40,166 nucleotides of DNA from Blautia sp. (GTDB lineage: Bacteria; Bacillota; Clostridia; Lachnospirales; Lachnospiraceae): NCBI GenBank assembly GCA_017459635.1, contig JAFUCO010000056.1:1-40166 (forward strand), written 5' to 3'. Numbering within the stretch: the stretch's first letter is position 1; each line of letters opens with the position of its first letter. Of this stretch, positions 179 to 40,166 are shown piece by piece. Under the pieces are notes generated by a model. That model was not told the DNA's origin, ran no database searches, and saw only the letters and a list, made by a program, of their open reading frames with translations. A program made the translations under genes and the position numbers.

Positions 179-283
179 CCTGAACTTTATTAAGAGGCAG
201 CAGGAGCAGGGATTCCCGGGATATCGCTGAACAGTATTGTTGAAAAATCTGTCAGAGATGAGCTGAAAGCCATGAGTGGCTGA
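179..283 (+). pseudogene. Relic of the 3' end of hicB
   Basis: Translated in the frame ending at TGA 281-283, this stretch reads as the last 35 or so residues of the intact HicB at 5283-5618: it ends in the same EKSVRDELKAMSG. It has one in-frame TAA (191-193) where the intact gene has CAA, and lacks one codon. From 218 to 328 it differs from 5553-5663 at only 3 of 111 positions, and the match runs on past the stop codon into the promoter and leader. It has no start codon and is not expected to be expressed. Only the ribbon-helix-helix end of the antitoxin is represented. It is evidence of a segmental duplication rather than an independent gene. Confidence 0.85.
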
Positions 284-296
284 AAGTAAAAAATAT

Positions 297-325
297 TTGC
301 ATTTTCTCATTGAGTGGAGTACAAT
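297..325 (+). promoter_or_regulatory. Sigma-A promoter of carAB
   Basis: TTGCAT (297-302), a 17-nt spacer and TACAAT (320-325). Transcription should start near 332, giving a leader of about 95 nt before the carA ATG. The same promoter occurs before gltB at 5632-5660. Confidence 0.75.
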
Positions 326-344
326 GCTCTAAAATATAATAGGT

Positions 345-393
345 TTTGAAGCAATGGCGCTTCGGGTTTGTATGCCCGAAGTGCCTTTTTTTT
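345..393 (+). promoter_or_regulatory. ANTAR-type antiterminator/terminator switch before carA
   Basis: Two mutually exclusive hairpins are visible. Hairpin one pairs TTTGAAGC (345-352) with GCTTCGGG (359-366) around the hexaloop AATGGC (353-358), with A at loop position 1 and G at position 4. Hairpin two pairs GGCGCTTCGGG (356-366) with CCCGAAGTGCC (375-385) and is followed by eight T (386-393), a textbook intrinsic terminator. The 3' arm of the first hairpin is the 5' arm of the terminator, so stabilising the first prevents termination. ANTAR proteins are known to act this way on A1/G4 hexaloops. A clear upstream partner hairpin (P1) was not found in the predicted transcript. The ANTAR protein at 16402-16980 is the obvious candidate ligand. 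Confidence 0.72.
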
Positions 394-426
394 GCTGCAA
401 ATGATTTAGCCAAAGGGGAGAGAAGG

Positions 427-1500
427 ATGAAAACAGACAGAAAGCTGATCCTGGAGGATGGAAGTGAATATTATGGAACCGGGTTTGGTTCGGGAAAGGA
501 TGTTGTGTGTGAGGTGGTTTTCAACACTTCCGTGGTCGGATACCAGGAAATCCTTTCAGATCCTTCCTATACCGATCAGGCAGTGGTGATGTCATACCCG
601 ACGATCGGTAATTATGGGATAACAGAAGAAGATTTTGAGAGCAGAAGGATCGCGCCCTCGGCCTTTATTGTGAGGGATGTATGCAGAAATCCCTCTAATT
701 TCCGATCTACTCTTTCTGTGGAGGAACTGCTGGAGGAGAATGATATTCCCGGAATCAGCGGAGTGGATACCAGAAGACTTGTCCGCAGCATCAGGGAATA
801 TGGAACCCGCAGAGGTCTGGTTACAGATTCAGATACTCCCGTTCAGGAAGGGCTTGAGCGTATCCGGGCCGCGGATATTCCTCATGATGCAGTACGCCGC
901 AGCAGCTGCAGGAAAAAATGGTACAGCCGTACAGCAAATCCCCGTTTTAATGTAGTTATCATTGACTGCGGGATGAAGGCAAATATTGTGCGGGCATTAA
1001 ACCGGAACCGATGCAATGTAACCATAGTTCCTTATGACACCGGGCACGAGGAGATCCTTGCGCTTTCTCCTGATGGAATCCTTGTTTCGAACGGTCCCGG
1101 TGATCCTCAGGATGTTCCGGAGGTGGTATATACATTGCAGAATATCATCGGGAAATGTCCGATATTCGGGATATGCCTTGGCCACCAGCTGCTTGCCCTT
1201 GCTTATGGCGCAAAAACCTATAAGCTGCCCTTTGGCCACCGGGGAGGAAATCATCCTGTGAAAGAGCTGCGGACCGGACGTATTTACGTCACAAGCCAGA
1301 ATCACAGCTATGCAGTTGATGAAAAGAGCCTTTCGAATACCGGGCTTAAAGTGTCCCATTTTAACCTTATTGATCATACAGTAGAAGGGCTGTTCAGTGA
1401 AAAAGATGCTGTTTTCTCGGTACAGTTCCACCCGGAAAGCGCTCCGGGGCCACAGGATGCCATTGATCTGTTTGAAGCATTCACGGCTATTATGCCTTAG
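427..1500 (+). CDS. carA: Carbamoyl phosphate synthetase small (glutaminase) subunit
   Basis: CarA hydrolyses glutamine and channels ammonia to CarB for carbamoyl phosphate, the precursor of pyrimidines and arginine, in the cytoplasm. The 357-residue protein has the CarA N-terminal domain (LEDGSEYYGTGFG, VGYQEIL) and a C-terminal class I amidotransferase domain with nucleophile C250 in GICLGHQ and the His335/Glu337 pair in QFHPES. I chose the ATG at 427 because a purine-rich GGGGAGAGAAGG lies just before it; the longer frame from the TTG at 346 would run through the terminator hairpin. carB follows after 123 nt. Expression is probably set by the leader switch at 345-393, which would tie glutamine-consuming carbamoyl phosphate synthesis to nitrogen status. 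Family assignment is very secure. Confidence 0.97.
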   Translation: MKTDRKLILEDGSEYYGTGFGSGKDVVCEVVFNTSVVGYQEILSDPSYTDQAVVMSYPTIGNYGITEEDFESRRIAPSAFIVRDVCRNPSNFRSTLSVEELLEENDIPGISGVDTRRLVRSIREYGTRRGLVTDSDTPVQEGLERIRAADIPHDAVRRSSCRKKWYSRTANPRFNVVIIDCGMKANIVRALNRNRCNVTIVPYDTGHEEILALSPDGILVSNGPGDPQDVPEVVYTLQNIIGKCPIFGICLGHQLLALAYGAKTYKLPFGHRGGNHPVKELRTGRIYVTSQNHSYAVDEKSLSNTGLKVSHFNLIDHTVEGLFSEKDAVFSVQFHPESAPGPQDAIDLFEAFTAIMP

Positions 1501-1623: not shown

Positions 1624-4600
1624 ATGCCTAGAAGAACAGACATTAAGAAAGTGATGGTCATAGGTTCCGGGCCGATCGTGATCGGACAAGCGGCAGAGTT
1701 TGATTATGCAGGTACTCAGGCATGTCTGGCGCTGAAGGAAGAGGGGTACGAAGTGATCCTGGCAAATTCCAATCCGGCTACGATCATGACAGACCATTCC
1801 ATTGCGGACAAAGTTTATATGGAACCGCTGACGCTGGAGTACATGGCCAGGATATGCAGATATGAAAGACCGGATGCCGTCCTGCCGGGGCTGGGAGGTC
1901 AGACCGGGCTGAATCTTTCCCTGGAGCTTTACGACAAAGGAGTATTAGAAGAATGTGAGATAGAACTTCTTGGAACTGACGCAGCAAGCATAAGGAAGGC
2001 TGAAGACAGGGAGCAGTTCAAAGAACTGTGTCTGGAGCTGGGAGAACCTGTGATCCCATCAATTATCACTGCAGACATTGAAGAAGGAGTGAAAGCAGCA
2101 GCGGAGATAGGTTATCCGGTCATCCTTCGTCCGGCCTTCACCCTCGGAGGCACCGGAGGCGGTTTTGCCTACAGTGAGGAGGAAATGAGGGAGAGAATGC
2201 GGAACGCTCTGGAGTGTTCGCCTGTCAGTCAGGTATTGGTAGAAAAAAGCATACGCGGTTACAAGGAAATAGAGTATGAAGTGATCCGGGATGCAAATGA
2301 TACAGTTATCACAGTATGCAATATGGAAAATCTGGATCCTGTAGGGATCCACACAGGTGATTCGGTTGTCGTTGCGCCCAGCCAGACCCTTACCAATAAA
2401 GAATATCAGATGCTGAGGGAAAGCGCTATAAGGATCATCCGGGCGCTAAAGGTAAAGGGAGGGTGCAATGTCCAGTTTGCCCTGGATCCGGAATCTTTTG
2501 ATTACTATGTGATCGAGGTAAACCCAAGGGTATCACGTTCTTCCGCCCTTGCTTCCAAGGCCACAGGTTATCCCATAGCAAGGGTATCTGCAAAGATCGC
2601 GGTGGGAATGAACCTTTCTGAGATCATGCTTGCCAATACGCCGGCCTGCTTTGAACCGGCACTCGACTATGTTGTGACAAAGATGCCCAGGTTTCCGTTT
2701 GATAAATTTACACTTGCCTCGAATGTCCTGTCTACACAGATGAAAGCGACCGGGGAGACCATGAGCATCGGCAGAACCCTGGAGGAGAGCCTGCTTAAGG
2801 CCATAAGGTCTCTGGAGGACGGGAAAAACCATATTCATCTTGCGAAATTTGATGTACAGACTCTCTCGGATAAACCGGCTCCGGAAAACCGGAAGGAAGC
2901 AGTTAAAAAACTTCTTCATTATATCGAAGAAGGGACAGATGACAGGATCTATGCTATCGCAGAGCTGCTCTGGCTGGGAGTGGATCCGCAGGTTATTTAT
3001 TCCCGGACACGTATCGATCTTCTTTTCCTGGATGTGATCCGCAGTATTGTAGAATTTGAGAAGAGGCTTGAGAAAGCCGCACAGTGGAAAGAGAAAACCG
3101 GGAACATACAGATACCGGCGTTGTCAGCTTTTGATAGAGCAAAGAAGATAATAGATGAAGAACTGCTGCGTGATGCCAAGCGGATGGGCTTTTCTGATTC
3201 CTATATTGCCGAGCTGACCGGCTGCCGGGAGCAGGATGTGTGGAAGCTCCGGCGGGAATACAGTATCTTTCCGGTATACAAGATGATCGATACGTGCGCA
3301 AGCGAATTCAAAAGCTATGTGCCCTATTTTTACTCTACATATGAGGAGGAGAACGAATCGATAGTTTCCGAAAACAGCAAGATAATAGTCCTGGGTTCGG
3401 GTCCTATAAGAATAGGGCAGGGAGTGGAATTTGATTATTCAACGGTTCATGCTGTAAAGACCATACATGAGCTTGGATATGAAGCTATTGTGGTCAACAA
3501 CAATCCGGAGACAGTTTCAACCGATTATACTACGGCAGATAAGCTGTATTTTGAGCCTCTCACTGCAGAGGATGTGATGAACATTGTTAATCTTGAGAAG
3601 CCTCTGGGGGTGATAACTTCGCTTGGAGGTCAGACAGCAGTAAATCTGGCTGAGTCTCTGGCAGAGAGGGGAGTTCATATCATAGGTACCTCCCCGGAAG
3701 CGATCTTCTCTGCAGAGGATCGTGACGCATTTGAAAAAGTACTTGAAAAAGCCGGCATACCCCATCCTGAGGGGAGTGCTGTCAGCAGCGTCCCGGAAGG
3801 GATAAGGGAGGCAGAAAGGATTGGATATCCGGTTCTGGTACGACCAGGCTTTGTCCTGGGAGGAAGGGCTATGGAGATCGCAGCCAACGAGTCCATGCTC
3901 AGAAAATATCTGGAGCAGGCTGAAGCGGTAGATGAAAAACGTCCGGTCCTTGTAGATAAATACGTCGTTGGGAAAGAAGTGGAGGTAGATGCGGTCTGTG
4001 ACGGAAAGGAGGTTTTTCTTCCCGGAATTATGGAACTGGTGGAGCGTACCGGAGTTCATTCCGGAGACAGCATCAGCGTATATCCTCCTTTTTCCATTTC
4101 GGAGAAGGTATGTGAGGTGATCGCGGATCATACCAGGCGGCTTGGCCTGGCAATCGGAATTATCGGACTGTACAATATCCAGTTTATTGTTGACAGAGAT
4201 GAGAATGTATATATCATCGAAGTAAATCCCAGAGCCTCCAGAAGTGTACCGTTTCTCTCAAAATCTACAGGAATCCCGCTTGTGGATATTGCGGTAAAGA
4301 CCATGCTTGGAATTTCGCTTTCTCAGCAGGGACTTTCCGGGAAGACCGTTCAAAGAAAGGACAGATGGTATGTGAAGGCCCCGGCATTCTCCTTTGCAAA
4401 GCTGAACGGGATGGATGCGTACCTTTCACCGGAGATGAAGTCAACCGGGGAAGCCATCGGATATGACATAAGCCTGAAAAGAGCTTTATACAAGGCGCTT
4501 CAGGCTTCAGGGATCAAGATGAAGGAATATGGAACCGTAGTGGTGACTCTGGCGGACGAGGATAAAAAAGAGGCGCTGCCGCTGGTAAGAAGATTCTACG

Positions 4601-4905
4601 CGCTGGGCTTTAACATAGAAGCGACAGCCGGAACCGGAGAATACCTGAAAAAGAACGGTATCCATACCAGGATCCGCGGCAAGATAAGTGAGGGGAGCCA
4701 TGAGATCCTGGATTCGATAAGCGCCGGGTATGTCAGCTATATCATTAATACGAGGGCTATCTATTCGGGCATTCATTATGAAGACGGCGTACAGATACGT
4801 CAGTGCGCAATCCGTAACGGAGTGACCATGTTTACTTCACTGGATACAGTCAGGATACTGCTGGATGTGCTTGAGGAGATCACACCGCGGATAAGCACGA
4901 TATGA
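1624..4905 (+). CDS. carB: Carbamoyl phosphate synthetase large subunit
   Basis: CarB uses ammonia from CarA, bicarbonate and two ATP to make carbamoyl phosphate. The 1093-residue protein is slightly longer than the usual 1060-1075 and has the two homologous halves: each begins with a VIGSGPI/VLGSGPIRIGQ-type motif and a phosphate-binding EFDY segment, followed by an ATP-grasp domain (the first with RPAFTLGGTGGG, the second with RPGFVLGGRAME), then an MGS-like allosteric domain near residues 940-1070. The start at 1624 is preferred over the upstream ATGs because CGGAGG sits 6 nt before it. It is co-transcribed with carA. Its 3' flank carries a copy of the GACGGTTCTCTGTC repeat that may serve as the end of the transcript. 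Confidence 0.97.
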   Translation: MPRRTDIKKVMVIGSGPIVIGQAAEFDYAGTQACLALKEEGYEVILANSNPATIMTDHSIADKVYMEPLTLEYMARICRYERPDAVLPGLGGQTGLNLSLELYDKGVLEECEIELLGTDAASIRKAEDREQFKELCLELGEPVIPSIITADIEEGVKAAAEIGYPVILRPAFTLGGTGGGFAYSEEEMRERMRNALECSPVSQVLVEKSIRGYKEIEYEVIRDANDTVITVCNMENLDPVGIHTGDSVVVAPSQTLTNKEYQMLRESAIRIIRALKVKGGCNVQFALDPESFDYYVIEVNPRVSRSSALASKATGYPIARVSAKIAVGMNLSEIMLANTPACFEPALDYVVTKMPRFPFDKFTLASNVLSTQMKATGETMSIGRTLEESLLKAIRSLEDGKNHIHLAKFDVQTLSDKPAPENRKEAVKKLLHYIEEGTDDRIYAIAELLWLGVDPQVIYSRTRIDLLFLDVIRSIVEFEKRLEKAAQWKEKTGNIQIPALSAFDRAKKIIDEELLRDAKRMGFSDSYIAELTGCREQDVWKLRREYSIFPVYKMIDTCASEFKSYVPYFYSTYEEENESIVSENSKIIVLGSGPIRIGQGVEFDYSTVHAVKTIHELGYEAIVVNNNPETVSTDYTTADKLYFEPLTAEDVMNIVNLEKPLGVITSLGGQTAVNLAESLAERGVHIIGTSPEAIFSAEDRDAFEKVLEKAGIPHPEGSAVSSVPEGIREAERIGYPVLVRPGFVLGGRAMEIAANESMLRKYLEQAEAVDEKRPVLVDKYVVGKEVEVDAVCDGKEVFLPGIMELVERTGVHSGDSISVYPPFSISEKVCEVIADHTRRLGLAIGIIGLYNIQFIVDRDENVYIIEVNPRASRSVPFLSKSTGIPLVDIAVKTMLGISLSQQGLSGKTVQRKDRWYVKAPAFSFAKLNGMDAYLSPEMKSTGEAIGYDISLKRALYKALQASGIKMKEYGTVVVTLADEDKKEALPLVRRFYALGFNIEATAGTGEYLKKNGIHTRIRGKISEGSHEILDSISAGYVSYIINTRAIYSGIHYEDGVQIRQCAIRNGVTMFTSLDTVRILLDVLEEITPRISTI

Positions 4906-4962: not shown

Positions 4963-4990
4963 TAAGACAGAGAACCGTCCCCTTGTCTTA
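4963..4990. repeat. GACGGTTCTCTGTC-family repeat between carB and hicA
   Basis: TAAGACAGAGAACCGTCCCC followed by TTGTCTTA. A single copy with short outer TAAGACA/TGTCTTA complementarity, lying directly before the hicA promoter. Confidence 0.85.
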
Positions 4991-5031: not shown

Positions 5032-5286
5032 ATGAACAGCAAGAATAGAAAAACATATAGAGAAATATACACTGATCCTGTTAAAGCAGATATAGCCTGG
5101 TCTGACATTGAAGCCCTGTTTTCTGCACTGGGAGCAAAAATATCCGAGGGAAATGGTTCCCGGGTTCGAGTTGAACTGAATGGAGAAAGGGCTGTTTTTC
5201 ACAGGCCATATCCTGAGAACAATACAGATAAAGGAGTTGTAAAATCAGTTCGCAGATTTTTGGAGAATGCAGAGGTGGAGATATGA
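5032..5286 (+). CDS. hicA: HicA-type mRNA interferase toxin
   Basis: An 84-residue small basic protein with the HicA dsRBD-like pattern: a DIEALFSALGAKISEG helix, then GSRVRVELNG, FHRPYP and a closing VVKSVRRFLENA helix. HicA toxins cleave mRNA and are neutralised by HicB. The family's usual catalytic His follows GS (GSH); here that position is Arg and a His is found later in FHRP, a pattern I believe typifies a HicA subfamily, although I cannot confirm activity. No Shine-Dalgarno is present and the promoter -10 box ends at 5025, so translation is probably leaderless. The stop overlaps the hicB start by 4 nt. The pair sits between carB and the gltB leader. Confidence 0.85.
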   Translation: MNSKNRKTYREIYTDPVKADIAWSDIEALFSALGAKISEGNGSRVRVELNGERAVFHRPYPENNTDKGVVKSVRRFLENAEVEI

Positions 5287-5618
5287 TGAATTATAAAGGT
5301 TATATCGGAAAAGTCGAATATGATGACGAAAACCGTATCTTTACCGGAAGTGTCATAAATGTCAGAACGGTTATTACATTTCAGGGAAGGACGGTAGATG
5401 AGATTGAAGATGAGTTTAAAGCATCTGTAGATGATTATCTGGAGTGGTGCAGGGAGGATGGGATAGAGCCGGAGAAACCCTACTCCGGGAAGTTCAATGT
5501 CAGGTTTACACCAGAGCTTCATCAACAGGCAGCAGTAGGAGCAAGGATTCTTGGGATATCGCTGAACAGTTTTGTTGAAAAATCTGTCAGAGATGAGCTG
5601 AAAGCCATGAGTGGCTGA
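5283..5618 (+). CDS. hicB: HicB-type antitoxin with C-terminal ribbon-helix-helix domain
   Basis: A 111-residue protein with the HicB partial RNase H-like fold (YIGKVEYDDENRIFTGSV, then FQGRTVDEIEDEFKASVDDYLEWC) and a C-terminal RHH DNA-binding segment (FTPELHQQAAVGARILGISLNSFVEKSVRDEL). It should bind and block HicA and repress the hicAB promoter. ATG at 5283 overlaps the hicA stop (ATGA); a second ATG at 5286 is equally near the GAGGTGGAG ribosome site at 5272-5280. The sequence from about residue 76 to the stop and on through the next leader is duplicated at 179-396, so the gene end carries the gltB promoter region directly behind it. Confidence 0.9.
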   Translation: MMNYKGYIGKVEYDDENRIFTGSVINVRTVITFQGRTVDEIEDEFKASVDDYLEWCREDGIEPEKPYSGKFNVRFTPELHQQAAVGARILGISLNSFVEKSVRDELKAMSG

Positions 5619-5631
5619 AAGTAAAAAACAT

Positions 5632-5660
5632 TTGCATTTTCTCATAGAGTGGAGTACAAT
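5632..5660 (+). promoter_or_regulatory. Sigma-A promoter of gltBD
   Basis: TTGCAT (5632-5637), a 17-nt spacer and TACAAT (5655-5660), starting 14 nt after the hicB stop. It is identical in its boxes to the carA promoter. Start of transcription is expected near 5667. Confidence 0.75.
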
Positions 5661-5680
5661 GCTATAAATACATAATGATG

Positions 5681-5728
5681 TTGAAGCAAAGGCGCTTCGG
5701 GTTTTCATGCCCGTAGTGCCTTTTTTTT
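5681..5728 (+). promoter_or_regulatory. ANTAR-type antiterminator/terminator switch before gltB
   Basis: TTGAAGC (5681-5687) pairs with GCTTCGG (5694-5700) around the hexaloop AAAGGC (5688-5693), A at position 1 and G at position 4. The alternative terminator pairs GGCGCTTCGGG (5691-5701) with CCCGTAGTGCC (5710-5720) and is followed by eight T (5721-5728). It has the same logic as the carA leader, with changes between the two copies that keep both hairpins and the A1/G4 loop positions. Confidence 0.72.
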
Positions 5729-5807: not shown

Positions 5808-8800
5808 ATGGAAAATCTGTTTGAGAAGATACAGCGTGAAGGACTGTATGATACTTCCTTTGAACACGATAACTGCGGTATCGGCGCTGTCATAGATGTG
5901 CAGGGACGCAAAGATCATAGACTGGTGGATGATGCCCTTTCGATCGTGGAGAATCTTGAGCACCGGGCCGGCAAGGACGCGGAGGGGAAAACCGGGGACG
6001 GGGTAGGAATTCTGACACAGATCCCTCATCGTTTTTTTGTGAAAAAGCTGAAGGAACAGGGAATACTTCTTCCGGAAGAGCGGCAGTATGGTGTTGGAAT
6101 ATTCTTTTTCCCGCAGGATGACCTTGAAATGAGACAGGCCAGATCCATGTTCGAGGTTATCACCAGAAAAGCCGGGATCCGCATTCTGGGATGGAGGAAG
6201 GTGGAATCTGATCCGTCGGTGCTTGGGAAGAGAGCCCGGGAATGCATGCCGAATATCTGCCAGGTTTTTGTGGAAAGACCATCTCAGGCTGGGCAGGACA
6301 TCGACTTTGACAGGATGCTCTACATAATCCGGCGGGAATTTGAACAGAGCTGTGTCAGTACCTATGTGCCTTCATTTTCCTGCCGTACTATCGTCTACAA
6401 GGGGATGTTCCTTGTGAGGCAGCTGCGCACATTTTTTACAGATCTGATGGATCCGGATTATGAATCAGCGATCGCGATAGTCCACTCGCGTTTTTCCACC
6501 AATACCATGCCGAGCTGGAACAGGGCTCATCCTAACCGCCTGATCGTACATAACGGCGAGATCAACACCATAAAGGGTAATGTAGATAAAATGCTGGCCC
6601 GGGAAGAGACCATGCACACTTCACTGTTTTCCGAGGAAGACATGACCAGAGTCCTTCCGGTAATCTCCCAGAGCGGTTCCGATTCCGCGATGCTTGACAA
6701 TACCCTGGAATTCCTGATGATGAGCGGGATGGAACTCCCGCTTGCGGCAATGATCCTCATCCCGGAGCCGTGGGCGCATAATGAGACCCTTTCGCAGGAG
6801 GAGAGGGATTTTTATCAGTATTATGCGACCATGATGGAACCGTGGGACGGCCCGGCTTCTATACTTTTTTCGGACGGGGACGTGATGGGAGCCATCCTGG
6901 ACCGCAATGGGCTGAGACCCTCCCGGTATTACGTGATGGATGACGGAAGGCTTATCCTCTCTTCAGAGGTCGGGGTGCTGGAGCTTGACGAGAGCCATAT
7001 TGTTAAGAAGGAACGGCTGCATCCGGGCAAAATGCTCCTGGTGGATACAAAACAGAAAAGGATCCTGGGGGATGAAGAGATCAAGGAGACCTATGCGAAA
7101 GCACAGCCTTTTGGTGAATGGCTTGACAGTCATCTGCTGCAGCTTTCAGATCTTAAGATACCCAACAAAAAGGTTCCGTCATTTTCTGATATAGAGAGGA
7201 AAAAGCTTCAGAAAGCTTTTGGATACACATGGGAAAACTACCATGATGGAATACTGTCGATGGCTCTTTCGGGTACCGAACAGATCGGCTCCATGGGCGT
7301 GGATACACCGATTGCGGCACTTTCCGGGACTTATCAGCCGCTGTTTTATTATTTCAAGCAGCTTTTTGCACAGGTGACAAATCCGCCCATCGATGCCCAG
7401 CGGGAGGAGATAGTGACATCCAGGACTGTCTATGTGGGGAAGAACGGAAATCTGCTTGAACAGAAGCCGGAGAACTGTCATGTGCTGAAGATCAACAATC
7501 CGATCCTCACTGACCTGGATCTTCTGAAGATCCAGAATATGAATCAGGAAGGCTTCCGGGTGGCAAAGGTTTCCACACTGTTCTATAAAAGTACGCCGAT
7601 GAAACGCGTACTGCAGCATCTGTCTGTAGAAGTGGATAAAGCATACCGGCAGGGGGCAAATATACTTATACTTTCAGACCGGGGAGTTGATGAGAACCAC
7701 GTGGCGATTCCGTCCCTGCTGGCGGTGGCGGCTGTCCACAAGCATCTGGTAGATACCAGGAAATGTACCGCGATGTCCATTATACTGGAGTCAGGCGAAC
7801 CCTGCGAGGTACATCATTTTGCCCTGCTTCTCGGATATGGAGCTTCGGCAGTAAATCCCTATCTTGCCCATGCCACTATTGCGGAGCTGGTTTCTGAGGA
7901 GCTGCTGGATAAGGATTATTACGCGGCTGTGGAGGACTATGACAGGGCAATACTGTTCGGCATAGTCAAGATCGCTTCCAAGATGGGCATCTCAACGATA
8001 CAGTCCTATCAGGGGAGCAAGATATTTGAGGCCATCGGGATATCGGAGGATGTGATTCAGACCTGTTTTACCGGAACTGTGAGCCGTGTGGGCGGGGTCA
8101 CTCTTCAGGATATCGAAAAGGCCTGCGACGAGCAGCACAGCCGGGCCTTCGATCCCCTGGGGCTGCCCTCCGATCTTGAGCTGACGGCAGCAGGAAGGCA
8201 CAAAGCGCGAAGTCAGGGGGAAAACCACCGGTATAATCCGCAGACTATTCATATGCTGCAGCGTTCGGTGAGGGAAGGAAGCTACGAAGAATATGTTCAG
8301 TACACCCGCATGGTAGACAGCGAGAATACAGGCTATCTCAGAAGCCTGCTGGATTTCCGGTATCCTGATAAAGGGATCGACATTTCAGAGGTTGAAAGTG
8401 AAGAATCAATTGTACAGCGTTTCAAGACGGGAGCAATGTCCTATGGCTCGATCTCGGAGGAGGCGCATGAGACACTTGCCATTGCCATGAACCGCCTGCA
8501 TGGAAAATCTAACAGCGGGGAAGGCGGGGAGAGCGAGGAAAGGATCAGGTCAGCAGGAACAGAAAATGACCGCAGCTCTGCAATCAAGCAGGTTGCAAGC
8601 GGCCGGTTCGGCGTGACAAGCCGTTACCTGGTAAGCGCTAAGGAGATCCAGATCAAGATGGCACAGGGAGCAAAGCCGGGTGAAGGCGGTCATCTTCCGG
8701 GCAAAAAGGTCTATCCGTGGATCGCCAGGACAAGACACTCTACGCCGGGTGTGAGCCTGATCTCACCGCCGCCGCATCATGACATATATTCGATCGAGGA

Positions 8801-10370
8801 TCTGGCTCAGCTTATATTTGACCTTAAAAATGCCAACAAGGATGCACGTATCTCAGTGAAGCTGGTGTCCGAAGCCGGAGTGGGGACAGTGGCAGCAGGT
8901 GTTGCAAAGGCAGGAGCTTCTGTTATCCTGATCTCCGGATATGACGGAGGTACCGGAGCGGCACCGCTTTCATCCATCCACAATGCCGGACTCCCGTGGG
9001 AACTGGGACTTGCGGAGACACATCAGACACTGATCGCCAACGGTCTCCGCAGCCAGGTGGTGATAGAAACTGACGGAAAACTGATGAGCGGGCGTGATAC
9101 AGTTATCGCCGCAATACTGGGGGCTGAGGAGTTCGGCTTCGCTACAGCGCCGCTTATCACGATGGGATGCGTGATGATGAGGACCTGCCAGTCGGACACA
9201 TGTCCTATGGGGGTCGCAACCCAGAATCCGGAGCTCAGGAAGCGTTTTGCAGGAAAACCGGAATACGTAGAAAACTTCATGCTGTTTACGGCCCGTCAGA
9301 TGCGTGAGATCATGGCATCTCTTGGAGTACGGTCCGTTGAGGAGCTGGTGGGCAGGACCGATCTTCTGTGCCTGAAAAAAGAGCTCTCAAAACAGGAACA
9401 AAGACTGGATCTTTCGAAGATCCTTTTGGATATGTCTTCAGTGGACAGAAAAGACGCAACCTTCCATCCGGAGAGCAGATATGACTTCAGACTGCAGGAG
9501 TCGAAGGACGAAAAAGCACTTCTTTCTTCTCAGGCTGTGCGCAGGGCTCTGGAAAAAGGTGAAAAGGCTGAAATATCAGTTCACATCAGGAATACCGACC
9601 GCACCTTCGGAACACTTCTTGGGGCGGAGATCACCCGGAAACACCCGGAAGGACTGCCTGATGACACGATCACTGTACACTGCTGTGGCGCAGGAGGGCA
9701 GAGTTTCGGGGCATTTGTGCCAAAAGGGCTCACACTGGACCTGACAGGAGACAGCAACGATTATTTCGGAAAAGGACTTTCAGGCGGAAGGCTGATACTT
9801 CACGCACCGGAAGAAGCCTCCTATGATCCCCAGGATAATATCATTGTCGGCAATGTAGCTCTTTATGGGGCTACATCCGGACAGGCGTTTATCGCGGGTA
9901 TGGCAGGTGAGAGATTCTGCATCCGCAATTCCGGGGCACACTGTGTGGTGGAGGGCGTCGGAGAACACGGCTGTGAATACATGACCGGGGGCTGCGTTGT
10001 GGTGCTTGGTTCAACAGGCAAGAACTTCGCCGCCGGGATGAGCGGAGGCACAGCCTATGTGCTGGATGAGGAAAACCGCCTGTACAGAAACCTGAATAAA
10101 CAGCTGGTAAAGATGGAGAATGTGGAGACGAAAACAGATCTCGCGGAGCTGAGAAAACTGATAGAGGCTCATGTAAAATGGACAGGTTCGAAGAAAGGCA
10201 GAGAGATCCTGGAACGGTTTGACGAGTACAAGAGCCATTTTAAGAAGATCATTCCTTCAGATTACAAGTCAATGCTCCGGCTGATCGCCAAAAACGAAGA
10301 GCAGGGCATGTCTCAGGAGGAGGCAAAGATAGAAGCTTTTAAAGAATTCATCGGAGAGGAGGGCGCGTGA
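5808..10370 (+). CDS. gltB: Glutamate synthase large (alpha) subunit
   Basis: GltB takes the amide group of glutamine and transfers it to 2-oxoglutarate to give two glutamate, using electrons from GltD. The 1520 residues follow the family plan: an N-terminal class II amidotransferase domain whose nucleophile C23 (in DNCGIGA) is normally exposed by removal of a short propeptide, a central domain, the FMN-binding synthase domain (GEGGESEERI, GAKPGEGGHLPG, ISGYDGGTGAAP), a 3Fe-4S site at C1121/C1127/C1132 (CVMMRTCQSDTC) and the C-terminal GXGXG beta-helix domain. The start at 5808 has GGAGG at 5796-5800. gltD follows with overlapping TGATG. Regulation by the leader switch at 5681-5728 fits a role in nitrogen assimilation. 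Confidence 0.98.
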   Translation: MENLFEKIQREGLYDTSFEHDNCGIGAVIDVQGRKDHRLVDDALSIVENLEHRAGKDAEGKTGDGVGILTQIPHRFFVKKLKEQGILLPEERQYGVGIFFFPQDDLEMRQARSMFEVITRKAGIRILGWRKVESDPSVLGKRARECMPNICQVFVERPSQAGQDIDFDRMLYIIRREFEQSCVSTYVPSFSCRTIVYKGMFLVRQLRTFFTDLMDPDYESAIAIVHSRFSTNTMPSWNRAHPNRLIVHNGEINTIKGNVDKMLAREETMHTSLFSEEDMTRVLPVISQSGSDSAMLDNTLEFLMMSGMELPLAAMILIPEPWAHNETLSQEERDFYQYYATMMEPWDGPASILFSDGDVMGAILDRNGLRPSRYYVMDDGRLILSSEVGVLELDESHIVKKERLHPGKMLLVDTKQKRILGDEEIKETYAKAQPFGEWLDSHLLQLSDLKIPNKKVPSFSDIERKKLQKAFGYTWENYHDGILSMALSGTEQIGSMGVDTPIAALSGTYQPLFYYFKQLFAQVTNPPIDAQREEIVTSRTVYVGKNGNLLEQKPENCHVLKINNPILTDLDLLKIQNMNQEGFRVAKVSTLFYKSTPMKRVLQHLSVEVDKAYRQGANILILSDRGVDENHVAIPSLLAVAAVHKHLVDTRKCTAMSIILESGEPCEVHHFALLLGYGASAVNPYLAHATIAELVSEELLDKDYYAAVEDYDRAILFGIVKIASKMGISTIQSYQGSKIFEAIGISEDVIQTCFTGTVSRVGGVTLQDIEKACDEQHSRAFDPLGLPSDLELTAAGRHKARSQGENHRYNPQTIHMLQRSVREGSYEEYVQYTRMVDSENTGYLRSLLDFRYPDKGIDISEVESEESIVQRFKTGAMSYGSISEEAHETLAIAMNRLHGKSNSGEGGESEERIRSAGTENDRSSAIKQVASGRFGVTSRYLVSAKEIQIKMAQGAKPGEGGHLPGKKVYPWIARTRHSTPGVSLISPPPHHDIYSIEDLAQLIFDLKNANKDARISVKLVSEAGVGTVAAGVAKAGASVILISGYDGGTGAAPLSSIHNAGLPWELGLAETHQTLIANGLRSQVVIETDGKLMSGRDTVIAAILGAEEFGFATAPLITMGCVMMRTCQSDTCPMGVATQNPELRKRFAGKPEYVENFMLFTARQMREIMASLGVRSVEELVGRTDLLCLKKELSKQEQRLDLSKILLDMSSVDRKDATFHPESRYDFRLQESKDEKALLSSQAVRRALEKGEKAEISVHIRNTDRTFGTLLGAEITRKHPEGLPDDTITVHCCGAGGQSFGAFVPKGLTLDLTGDSNDYFGKGLSGGRLILHAPEEASYDPQDNIIVGNVALYGATSGQAFIAGMAGERFCIRNSGAHCVVEGVGEHGCEYMTGGCVVVLGSTGKNFAAGMSGGTAYVLDEENRLYRNLNKQLVKMENVETKTDLAELRKLIEAHVKWTGSKKGREILERFDEYKSHFKKIIPSDYKSMLRLIAKNEEQGMSQEEAKIEAFKEFIGEEGA

Positions 10371-13353: not shown

Positions 13354-13380
13354 ATAAGACAGAGAACCGTCCCCTTCTTA
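13354..13380. repeat. GACGGTTCTCTGTC-family repeat after dapL, copy 1
   Basis: ATAAGACAGAGAACCGTCCC followed by CTTCTTA, starting 12 nt after the dapL stop. It is one of two direct copies in this spacer. Confidence 0.85.
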
Positions 13381-13423
13381 CTATGGCTGTTTATGGCAGG
13401 TGAGAGTATTATTATTGGTAGTA

Positions 13424-13451
13424 ATAAGACAGAGAACCGTCCCCTGTCTTA
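13424..13451. repeat. GACGGTTCTCTGTC-family repeat before pyrG, copy 2
   Basis: ATAAGACAGAGAACCGTCCC followed by CTGTCTTA, in the same direction as copy 1 and 70 nt further on. TAAGACAG/CTGTCTTA outer complementarity could form a hairpin. Confidence 0.85.
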
Positions 13452-15086: not shown

Positions 15087-15180
15087 GGACGGTTCTCTAA
15101 GACAGGGGACGGTTCTCTGTCTTATCAATAAAAATAAGACAGAGAACCGTCCCCTGTCTTAGAGAACCGTCCCCTGTCTT
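15087..15180. repeat. 39-bp perfect palindrome of GACGGTTCTCTGTC repeats
   Basis: Left arm 15087-15125 and right arm 15134-15172 are perfect complements across 39 bases with an 8-nt loop; 15173-15180 adds a further partial copy. It occupies nearly all of the space between pyrG and the GS-like gene and contains no promoter that I can recognise. It could end the pyrG transcript, though no T-run follows. Confidence 0.9.
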
Positions 15181-15195: not shown

Positions 15196-16368
15196 ATGGA
15201 ATATACAGTAGATGAGGTAATGAAGTACATAGAGGAAGAGGATGCCAAGTTTATCCGCCTGGCTTTCCGTGATGCATTCGGTGTGCAGAAAAACATATCC
15301 GTGATGCCGGGAGAAATAAAGAAAGCGTTTGAACATGGGGTGCCGATCAATGCCAGGGCTATAGCGGGCTTTGAGGACTGTCCTTATGCATCGCTGCTGC
15401 TGAAACCGGATTCTTCAACACTGGCTGTCCTTCCGTGGAGGCCGGACAGCGGCCGGGTGCTGCGGATGTTCTGCGATGTGTATACACCGGATGGAGAAGT
15501 GTATCCGTCTGACACCAGGGCTATTCTCAAAAGAGCTGTGGCTAAGGCTGAAGAGGCCGGCATAGAGTTCCGTTTTGGTACTGAGACAGAATTCTATCTG
15601 TTCCGCAAGGATGATGAGGGAAACCCCACAAAAATCCCTTATGACAATGCCGGGTATATGGATATCGCTCCGCTTGACCGCTGCGAGAATGTCCGCAGGG
15701 AGATAGACCTTACCATTGAGCAGATGGGGCTGACTCCGGAACGCTCTCATCATGAGCGCGGACCGGGGCAGAATGAGATCGATTTTCATTATGGTAAGCC
15801 ATTAAAAGCAGCAGATCAGATGATAACCTTCAAGATGGTAGTCAGTATCATTGCCGACAGGTGCGGCCTTACAGCAGACTTTTCACCGCTGCCTCTCCCG
15901 GGGCAGCCGGGGAACGGTTACCATATTAATATATACGCTGTGGATAAGAACGGGGACGATGTGGTCAGATATGCTGCGGCCGGAATCATAGATAAGATCC
16001 GGGACATTACTCTGTTCCTGAATCCTTCCGAGGCATCCTATTCACGTTTCGGCAGCAATATGGCACCTGACAGGGTCAACTGGTCAAGCGCCGGGAAATC
16101 GGAGCTTATGTATATTGAGAACTATCGAGGGAAGATCAGGGCAGAGCTGCGCTCCCCGGATGCTTCCGGAAATCCGTATCTTGTATATGCACTGCTGATA
16201 CATGCAGGCCTTCTGGGAATCGAAAAGAAGCTTGAATTGCCGGAAGAGATGGATGAAAAAGGGCCGCTTCTTCCGGGATCACTGAAAGAAGCCAGGAGGA
16301 TCTCTGCAGAAAGCAGTTTTGTACGGGACATCGTACCGGAAGGTATTCTTCGCAAATACACAACCTGA
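15196..16368 (+). CDS. Divergent, short glutamine-synthetase-like protein
   Basis: A 390-residue member of the GS-I superfamily (canonical GS-I is about 440-470). Kept: the beta-grasp start, the metal-ligand set E130/E132 (GTETEF), E187 (HHERGPGQ), E194 (NEIDF), H243 (GNGYH) and E317 (RAELRSPD), plus NPYL. Changed by hand alignment to Bacillus and Salmonella GlnA: the SD carrying the ammonium-site Asp (Asp50) is A65-S66; the flap Glu region GYEAP reads SNMAP; NRS...IRIP reads GKS...MYIE, so two glutamate/ATP Arg become K301 and Y306. The usual C-terminal helix that locks the two rings is absent. GGAGG at 15184-15188 supports the start. The ANTAR gene follows after 33 nt. It may be a GS with altered chemistry or a ligand-sensing pseudoenzyme; gene name glnA is therefore withheld. 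Confidence 0.85.
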   Translation: MEYTVDEVMKYIEEEDAKFIRLAFRDAFGVQKNISVMPGEIKKAFEHGVPINARAIAGFEDCPYASLLLKPDSSTLAVLPWRPDSGRVLRMFCDVYTPDGEVYPSDTRAILKRAVAKAEEAGIEFRFGTETEFYLFRKDDEGNPTKIPYDNAGYMDIAPLDRCENVRREIDLTIEQMGLTPERSHHERGPGQNEIDFHYGKPLKAADQMITFKMVVSIIADRCGLTADFSPLPLPGQPGNGYHINIYAVDKNGDDVVRYAAAGIIDKIRDITLFLNPSEASYSRFGSNMAPDRVNWSSAGKSELMYIENYRGKIRAELRSPDASGNPYLVYALLIHAGLLGIEKKLELPEEMDEKGPLLPGSLKEARRISAESSFVRDIVPEGILRKYTT

Positions 16369-16401
16369 ACAGGATTTTATTTGGTTGACAGGGGGAAACA
16401 T

Positions 16402-16980
16402 ATGCCCGGAAGTACAGACAGAATAAGCTCCATTTTGATCGTTTCAGGTTCGGAGCAGTTTACGGCTATATTTAAAAAAGTTCTGTCCAGAAAAGGGATC
16501 ATGAGGTTAGACACCGCTAAAAGCGCTGCGTCTGCCAGACGCCGTGTGCTTGAGACACCCTATGATATAGTGGTGATAAACAGTCCGCTGCAGGAGGAAT
16601 TCGGGCATGACCTGGCACGTGACGTTTCTGAAAAAGGAAATACTTCAGTGCTGATGGTGGTTCCTTCAGAGGTGTACGAGACCGTAATGGAGAATGTGAC
16701 AGACTATGGGATACTGGTGATTTCAAAGCCTTTGTCAGGAAGCATGGCAGATAAGACAGTGCGATTCCTGATTGCAGGCCAGAAACGTTATCTAAGACTG
16801 GAAAAGAGAGTAAGAACGCTGGAAGAGAAGATGGAGGAATTGAGGATAGTGAGCAAAGCCAAACTGTTCCTGATAGAACAGAAACATATGACAGAAGAAG
16901 AGGCGCATCGCTATATAGGAAAACAGGCAATGGATCACGGAGTTTCCAGAAGACGGATCGCCGAACAGATACTGGAGTAA
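16402..16980 (+). CDS. ANTAR-domain antitermination regulator with degenerate receiver
   Basis: The 192-residue protein has an N-terminal receiver-like domain (about 8-120), a coiled-coil linker (130-150) and a C-terminal ANTAR RNA-binding domain (about 150-192: AKLFLIEQKHMTEEEAHRYI, KQAMDHGVSRRRIAEQIL). ANTAR domains bind paired hexaloop hairpins in nascent RNA and prevent termination. The receiver lacks the acidic pair (VSGS instead of VDD) and has N60 where the phospho-accepting Asp should be, though K109 is kept, so control is probably not by phosphorylation. ATG 16402 with GGGGG 7 nt upstream is preferred to the TTG at 16381. Its position behind a GS-like gene parallels NitR-type regulators of clostridia. 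The carA and gltB leaders are its likely targets. Confidence 0.9.
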   Translation: MPGSTDRISSILIVSGSEQFTAIFKKVLSRKGIMRLDTAKSAASARRRVLETPYDIVVINSPLQEEFGHDLARDVSEKGNTSVLMVVPSEVYETVMENVTDYGILVISKPLSGSMADKTVRFLIAGQKRYLRLEKRVRTLEEKMEELRIVSKAKLFLIEQKHMTEEEAHRYIGKQAMDHGVSRRRIAEQILE

Positions 16981-16997: not shown

Positions 16998-17050
16998 ACA
17001 GGGGAGGGTTCTCTGTGCGCTAAGAAAGTGCACAGAGAACCCTCCCCTGT
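16998..17050. terminator. Repeat-derived hairpin after the ANTAR gene
   Basis: ACAGGGGAGGGTTCTCTGTGC (16998-17018, 21 bases, first base A) is exactly complementary to 17030-17050, with an 11-nt loop. It is a variant of the GACGGTTCTCTGTC family with GAGGGTTC in place of GACGGTTC, the compensating change being present in both arms. A terminator role for the GS-like/ANTAR operon is plausible, followed only by CTTA. Confidence 0.7.
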
Positions 17051-40122: not shown

Positions 40123-40166
40123 AATAAGACAGGGGACGGTTCTCTGTTTCAAGACAGAGAACCGTC
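40123..40166. repeat. GACGGTTCTCTGTC-family repeat, inverted pair cut by the window end
   Basis: AATAAGACAGGGGACGGTTC continues to GACGGTTCTCTGT and its complement ACAGAGAACCGTC, just after the last stop codon. Likely terminator position. Confidence 0.8.

Follow-up and report, generated by a model that had tools for sequence, protein, structure and literature searches.

A probable single-hexaloop ANTAR-type attenuator before carA and related leaders before glutamine genes in Lachnospiraceae

The closest described counterpart of the leader analysed here is the target of EutV in the eutP leader of Enterococcus faecalis. In the passages of Ramesh et al. (2012; PMC3369931) on target definition, an ANTAR target is a dual hexaloop, and an A1/G4 hexaloop that overlaps a terminator is its published signature; the linker between the two hairpins, P1 and P2, is given as 5–12 nt in eut leaders. 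Sections of PMC3369931 and PMC8934654 on the mechanism state that EutV antitermination needs both hairpins, and the actinobacterial ANTAR RNAs described in parts of the survey PMC8164766 are also dual stem-loops. Walshe et al. (2022; PMC8934654), who reduce the minimal ANTAR motif to one hexaloop, consider single sites possible and expect them where the time limit imposed by a transcribing polymerase is absent, with both hexaloops still required for antitermination.

Nitrogen genes are among the targets named in portions of PMC3369931, which list glutamate, glutamine and arginine synthases and ammonium transporters, and glutamine synthetase is named in part of a commentary on that paper (PMC3369936). 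Given the list in PMC3369931, targets such as glutamine synthetase, GltB and AmtB are therefore not new as a theme. The arginine synthases on the list could include carAB; the main text of PMC3369931 contains neither carA nor amidotransferase as a word, and carbamoyl appears in it as a phosphodonor only. Literature searches, whose coverage took in few subscription papers, returned no description of a single-hexaloop attenuator and none in which ANTAR controls carAB or glutamine-spending amidotransferases other than GltB. Work on nitR in Clostridium, reportedly dealing with glnA-nitR and gltA leaders, is a likely precursor.

The leader described here lies before carAB in a Blautia contig of 40,166 nt, the whole of which is called the window. 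It shares with EutV/eutP an A1/G4 hexaloop, a hairpin that excludes the terminator, a position in front of nitrogen genes and an ANTAR protein in the genome. It differs from EutV/eutP in having one hairpin near the 5′ end of the transcript, with no P1 and no linker, a receiver that lacks the phospho-Asp, and many glutamine amidotransferases among its targets. The single hexaloop as motif agrees with the single site considered in the relevant part of Walshe et al. (PMC8934654), whereas its overlap with a terminator departs from the expectation set out there. Since EutV needs both hairpins, the mechanism of a lone hairpin must differ. We consider it probable that the carA leader is a single-hexaloop ANTAR-type transcription attenuator and belongs to a glutamine regulon.

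Two exclusive structures before carA and a second copy before gltB

The region singled out in the earlier note, positions 297–426, extends from the −35 box of the carA promoter through the last base 5′ of the carA ATG. From the promoter TTGCAT-17-TACAAT at 297–325, a transcript start near position 332 is predicted, because the usual distance from a −10 box to +1 is 6–7 nt. Coordinates of the leader elements and genes are collected in Table 1.

Table 1. Features of the window that bear on the carA and gltB leaders
Feature	Position	Strand	Details and basis
197-nt direct repeat, copy one	197–393	+	Contains hicB 3′-end fragment, promoter, P2 and terminator; repeat search
−35 box, carA promoter	297–302	+	TTGCAT; read from sequence
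−10 box, carA promoter	320–325	+	TACAAT, spacer 17 nt; read from sequence
P2-type hairpin, proposed antiterminator	348–363	+	GAAGC-AATGGC-GCTTC; fold and covariation in relatives
Hexaloop AATGGC (A1 and G4)	353–358	+	Sequence; family consensus AANGGC; A1 recovered blind
Intrinsic terminator	356–393	+	Stem 356–367/374–385, U8 386–393; sequence and fold
carA, glutamine-hydrolysing carbamoyl phosphate synthase, small subunit	427–1500	+	Pfam CPSase_sm_chain, GATase
carB, large subunit	1624–4905	+	Pfam CPSase_L_D1, D2, D3 and MGS
Direct repeat, copy two, before gltB	5532–5728	+	197 nt, 89% identical to copy 197–393; repeat search
Copy two, promoter	5632–5660	+	
Copy two, P2	5683–5698	+	Loop AAAGGC
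Copy two, terminator and U-tract	5691–5728	+	
gltB, glutamate synthase large subunit	5808–10370	+	NCBIfam NF008730
glnA, glutamine synthetase	15196–16368	+	Pfam Gln-synt_C/N
ANTAR protein (degenerate receiver and ANTAR), proposed RNA-binding antiterminator	16402–16980	+	Pfam ANTAR PF03861

Direct reading of the sequence places the arms of P2 at 348–352 (GAAGC) and 359–363 (GCTTC), enclosing the hexaloop. Positions 356–363 are common to P2 and the terminator, and the two structures are mutually exclusive. The earlier note had described two hairpins with a shared arm, a first loop AATGGC carrying A1 and G4, and a second hairpin forming a terminator with U8, and all of this is borne out. In co-transcriptional folding, P2 forms from about 33 nt of growing transcript and is displaced by the terminator from about 48–54 nt, which leaves a short decision window. 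The terminator has a predicted energy of −24.2 kcal/mol (z −7.05; equalled or bettered by 0 of 200 shuffles) and P2 one of −7.3 kcal/mol (z −2.67; 3 of 200). Taken by itself P2 is only moderately better than chance; chance is excluded by the family evidence presented below.

At gathering score, an Rfam search of the whole window returned RNase P and three tRNAs and no known leader family. Between 200 and 520, with E values up to 5, nothing came near gathering score, the best match by bits being SpF01 (25, cut-off 55). PyrR, T-box, glnA RNA and the other known Rfam leaders were thus set aside for the carA leader, as none gave a gathering-score match over it. PyrR and other car/pyr attenuators also provide attenuation before carAB, a proposed role that the leader would share with them.

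The copy before gltB repeats the −35 box, the −10 box TACAAT and the 17-nt spacer of the carA promoter. The window's own pyrG and glnA have no hexaloop leader of the carA/gltB kind. A hicA/hicB toxin-antitoxin-like pair (5032–5618; Pfam HicA_toxin, HicB) lies between carB and gltB, and a 3′ fragment of hicB (197–285) was copied together with the leader to the front of carA. The window also holds a dispersed repeat, GACAGAGAACCGTCCCC, with 10 matches at up to 2 mismatches where 0.01 are expected (133–170, 4966–4982, 13358–13444, 15105–15154, 17001–17047 and 40132–40148), which resembles REP-type repeats. Several of these repeats precede pyrG and glnA, where some relatives have hexaloop leaders.

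The leader family in relatives

A covariance-model search of relatives, as suggested in the earlier note, was carried out with a model of the terminator (R1; 16 seeds) in which the upstream P2 arm and the loop were left unpaired. The family set comprised 120 genomes: the window's own, which is 66.8% complete, and 119 others of 90% completeness or more, one per genus. R1 matched in 88 of the 120 (E up to 0.01). Loci were retrieved where E was no more than about 1e-3; of the 163 matches obtained 134 were kept, and the 29 set aside were 2 duplicates and 27 extra matches that were weak or on the opposite strand. Plain terminators that lack P2 are included in the 134 (L268, L303 twice, L306, L311 and L313, among others).

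The upper hairpin covaries. Its 4-bp stem is intact in 100 of 125 distinct matches; when the 3′ arms were shuffled 5000 times the count was 50.3±3.8 (maximum 63), and with the 5′ arm displaced by −2, −1, +1, +2 or +3 it was 0. The 5′ arm involved is no part of the terminator and had been left single-stranded in R1. Stem types include AAGC/GCTT (42), GAAC/GTTC (15), AGGC/GTCT (14), AAAC/GTTT (12) and AGAC/GTCT (6), with changes on both sides, and both-sided changes occur in 4 of 5 pairs among the 16 seeds. The loop consensus is AANGGC, and A1 and G4 are each present in 122 of the 125 distinct matches. Upper-hairpin covariation and A1/G4 retention were two of the three points on which the earlier note had staked its proposal, and neither result speaks against it.

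As R1 included the loop bases, a second model, R2, was restricted to the terminator from G4 onwards and was therefore blind to loop bases 1–3. In the genus it gave matches in 56 of 64 genomes (E up to 0.02), and 73 of these matches (70 distinct), mostly the best scoring and not all, were read. P2 with at least 4 bp was present in 59 of the 70 distinct matches read, and A1 in 58 of those 59. Because G4-G5-C6 are also constrained by pairing in the terminator, G4 conservation alone proves nothing; the independent signs are A1, A2 and the 5′ arm only.

These data bear on the simplest alternative, that the leaders are plain promoter-proximal terminators, unregulated, with an incidental upper hairpin. 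The strength of the terminator would suit it, and some R1 and R2 matches are indeed plain terminators, but covariation of a 5′ arm outside the terminator, conservation of an A1 to which the model was blind, and the set of genes downstream make it highly improbable.

Leaders of the same kind precede carA and gltB in genome G018 and carA in G040; the promoters there have −35 boxes TTGCAA or TTGCTT, a 17-nt spacer and −10 TACAAT. Outside the family, 20 order-level R1 matches were read: in 13, P2 has 4 bp or more and its loop reads AANGGC, in 3 the stem has 3 bp, and 4 fail. In a pattern scan, the terminator-bearing loci among the 80 named loci listed are mostly from Lachnospiraceae, with a few from other groups. 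Within the window's genus, the leader of a Blautia schinkii locus is identical to that of genome G306, and a leader of Blautia sp. RGIG5147 to that on contig 176 of G036.

Promoter geometry leaves little room for a first hairpin. A clear promoter, scoring above the 95th percentile of shuffles, was found for 104 of the 134 leaders; the distance from the end of the −10 box to the P2 arm has a median of 10 nt and does not exceed 15 nt for 93 of the 104. With the usual 6–7 nt to +1, P2 therefore starts no more than a few bases from the 5′ end of the RNA. In the window's two leaders the distance is 22 nt, corresponding to about 16 nt of transcript. Beyond the family, the best promoter is at most 15 nt from P2 in 12 of 16 order-level leaders with P2, some of these promoters being weak.

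The main weakness conceded in the earlier note, that P1 was not seen in the predicted transcript, holds up: over the 110 nt upstream of P2, neither leader of the window has an A1/G4 hexaloop on a stem of at least 3 bp. Across the 134 relatives, scanned without a dual-hexaloop positive-control set, 3-bp stems were found upstream in 11 as compared with 6.0±2.3 after shuffling, a slight excess, and 4-bp stems in 3 as compared with 2.3±1.4. A classical dual-hexaloop target with an overlooked P1 would be the published form and could claim the excess at 3 bp. Most of those 11 stems, as read by eye, overlap promoter boxes, the 4-bp count is at the shuffled level, predicted transcripts are too short in the 93 leaders with close promoters, and the geometry outside the family is similar, all of which makes an overlooked P1 very unlikely. 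As P1 was looked for and not found, the carA leader falls outside the dual-hexaloop class as defined and is most likely a single-hexaloop variant with a glutamine regulon. The ANTAR-style reading of the earlier note is thus supported in part: covariation, A1/G4, nitrogen genes and co-occurrence with ANTAR speak strongly for it, and membership of the dual-hexaloop class is not borne out.

The ANTAR protein and its co-occurrence with the leaders

The ANTAR domain encoded in the window is C-terminal and scores 57.2 bits with PF03861 (Pfam cut-off 27.3); no other ANTAR was found in the window's assembly, which is 66.8% complete. By eye, the ATG at 16402 was preferred as start to the TTG at 16381. 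The receiver scores 29.6, below the Pfam cut-off of 30.2, and has Asn opposite the phospho-Asp of Rv1626. In 31 loci, the 30 best-scoring family ANTAR loci and the window, this position is Gly in 23, Asn in 3, Ser in 3, Ala in 1 and a gap in 1, so that Asp occurs in 0 of 30 aligned; phosphorylation at the usual site is therefore unlikely as the signal. With EutV numbering as we placed it on the alignment, the equivalent of Met172 is Met in all 31, that of Tyr164 is His in 26 and Phe in 5, and the positions of R142, K143 and K147 are variable. glnA lies directly 5′ of the ANTAR gene in 30 of the 31 loci. In the alignment of the lineage ANTAR profile, A5, two sub-types can be distinguished, one with a more recognisable receiver (the window, L201, L215) and a second, more degenerate one with a motif like GIVICGY; judging from the alignment, the two seem to share one target motif.

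PF03861 was found in 108 of the 120 family genomes searched with R1. Leaders occur in 87 of these 108 and in 1 of the 12 lacking it (Fisher p 1.1e-6, phylogeny ignored), the one ANTAR-less match, in G146, being weak and without P2. In 147 genomes of the order (E up to 1e-3) the corresponding fractions are 37/109 and 1/38 (p 5.9e-5, again ignoring phylogeny), and the ANTAR-less match, in G172, is likewise without P2. At the thresholds used, R1 gave no match in 21 of the 108 family genomes and 72 of the 109 order genomes with ANTAR.

Within the genus, ANTAR is absent from 5 of 64 genomes. One of these, G019 (1.6 Mb, completeness 92%), is a real exception: it carries four leaders, each with P2 and A1/G4, and no ANTAR could be detected in it. 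The search with R1 was repeated at E up to 0.05 on 18 ANTAR-negative genomes (12 from the family, 5 from the genus and 1 from the order, the other 37 order genomes being excluded) and gave 15 matches in 10 of the 18, with a P2 bearing A1 and G4 in G019 only; G132 has a 5-bp stem with the loop AAACGC. With profile A5, G019 gave no match, and the other 17 genomes gave matches that were mostly confined to the receiver and did not exceed 35 bits. Both glutamine synthetases of G019 are of the long type (open frames of 700 and 705 aa), the ANTAR-associated glnA was not found there, and the other four ANTAR-less genus genomes are also without a glnA of the usual size. The same absence in all five indicates that the presence of ANTAR and that of glnA are linked, and both may be genuinely absent from G019.

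The G019 leaders are one reason to consider that the hexaloop hairpin of glutamine-regulon attenuators is read by an RNA-binding regulator other than ANTAR; binding of the hairpin by ANTAR is in any case our proposal, and co-occurrence could reflect shared ancestry. Against this, a terminator-overlapping A1/G4 hexaloop is the ANTAR signature published in the part of PMC3369931 cited above, leaders follow ANTAR across the family in the proportions just given, and the ANTAR gene sits behind glnA almost throughout. The G019 assembly is also short of complete, though the loss of ANTAR and glnA there may be real. We regard a non-ANTAR regulator as unlikely.

A single-hexaloop ANTAR attenuator would work as follows. 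RNA polymerase would start near 332, and P2, with its loop AATGGC, would form first. By default the stronger terminator would displace P2 and transcription would stop at the U-tract 5′ of carA. Binding of the hexaloop by the ANTAR protein would hold P2, block the terminator and allow carAB to be transcribed, presumably when glutamine is short. Because the receiver has no phosphorylatable Asp, the signal is probably a protein partner and not a kinase, and GlnA, the operon neighbour, is the obvious candidate. ANTAR activity set by a partner is described for NasT/NasS in part of PMC3795266 and for AmiR/AmiC in part of PMC8934654, which fits a receiver of this kind; in contrast to those pairs, it is gene order that suggests GlnA as the partner here.

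The same element before gltB and, in relatives, before genes for glutamine synthetases, amtB, pyrG, purF, asnB, glmS, guaA and others would make up a glutamine regulon. We lean towards a broader reading, in which a widespread class of 5′-proximal, one-hexaloop ANTAR targets in Blautia and many related genera is served by a phosphorylation-independent, GlnA-coupled ANTAR protein and unites in one regulon the makers of glutamine and the amidotransferases CarA, PyrG, PurF, GlmS, GuaA, AsnB and GltB. Induction of glutamine users along with glutamine makers is not obvious physiology. Two hexaloops are required in the ANTAR antitermination model as published, with which a large natural one-hexaloop family would contrast; with such a family near the RNA start, why eut leaders need two would become directly testable. 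The proposed circuit suggests, in a major lineage of the gut microbiota, nitrogen and glutamine control by an RNA-level switch, which would tie glutamine supply to many steps that spend glutamine, among them steps of pyrimidine, purine, amino-sugar and asparagine synthesis.

Genes downstream of the leaders

An open reading frame was assigned downstream of 127 of the 134 matches and none in 7, and 108 of the 134 stand before genes for the synthesis, uptake or use of glutamine nitrogen. The most frequent are type III glutamine synthetase (42) and ammonium transporter amtB (25), followed by gltB (9), pyrG (8), purF (7), asnB (6), GlnA-type synthetase (4), carA (3), gdhA (2) and a glnQ-like ABC ATPase (2). 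Other targets are a class-III aminotransferase (2), a circularly permuted ATP-grasp protein (3), a PEP-synthase-like protein (3) and, once each, 11 genes that include dapL. In this tally tandem leaders were counted twice; one representative per cluster was checked with Pfam or NCBIfam, and many other gene names rest on N-termini. Downstream of the seeds glmS and guaA also occur, and in the genus set glmS and many more purF.

carA leaders were confirmed at six further loci by tblastn with the window's CarA, with CarA identities of 81% (G018), 78% (G040), 68% (L078), 54% (L112), 53% (L164, in G105) and 46% (L163, in G151). The earlier note had presented the leader as a control of carAB; a leader is present there, and it is regulon-wide, not special to carAB.

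Tandem leaders, two units each with its own terminator before one gene, occur at L046, L179, L181, L259 and L376, the last in G019. In 4 of the 25 transporter cases (L242, L258, L298, L301) the open reading frame starts 510–654 nt downstream of the leader, a gap that leaves room for a short intervening gene, possibly one for a PII protein. Leaders at L237, L257, L270, L248, L177, L292 and L377 precede the circularly permuted ATP-grasp or PEP-synthase-like proteins, which are candidates for glutamine-tied functions. The PEP-synthase-like fragment matched no Pfam family, and its NCBIfam PEP synthase matches are partial and far below cut-off; the dapL fragment (L250), which had no Pfam match, was named from its sequence. 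In five genus genomes (L379, L380, L381, L383, L388), purF and glnN are divergent and a single short intergenic region between them carries two outward-facing leaders.
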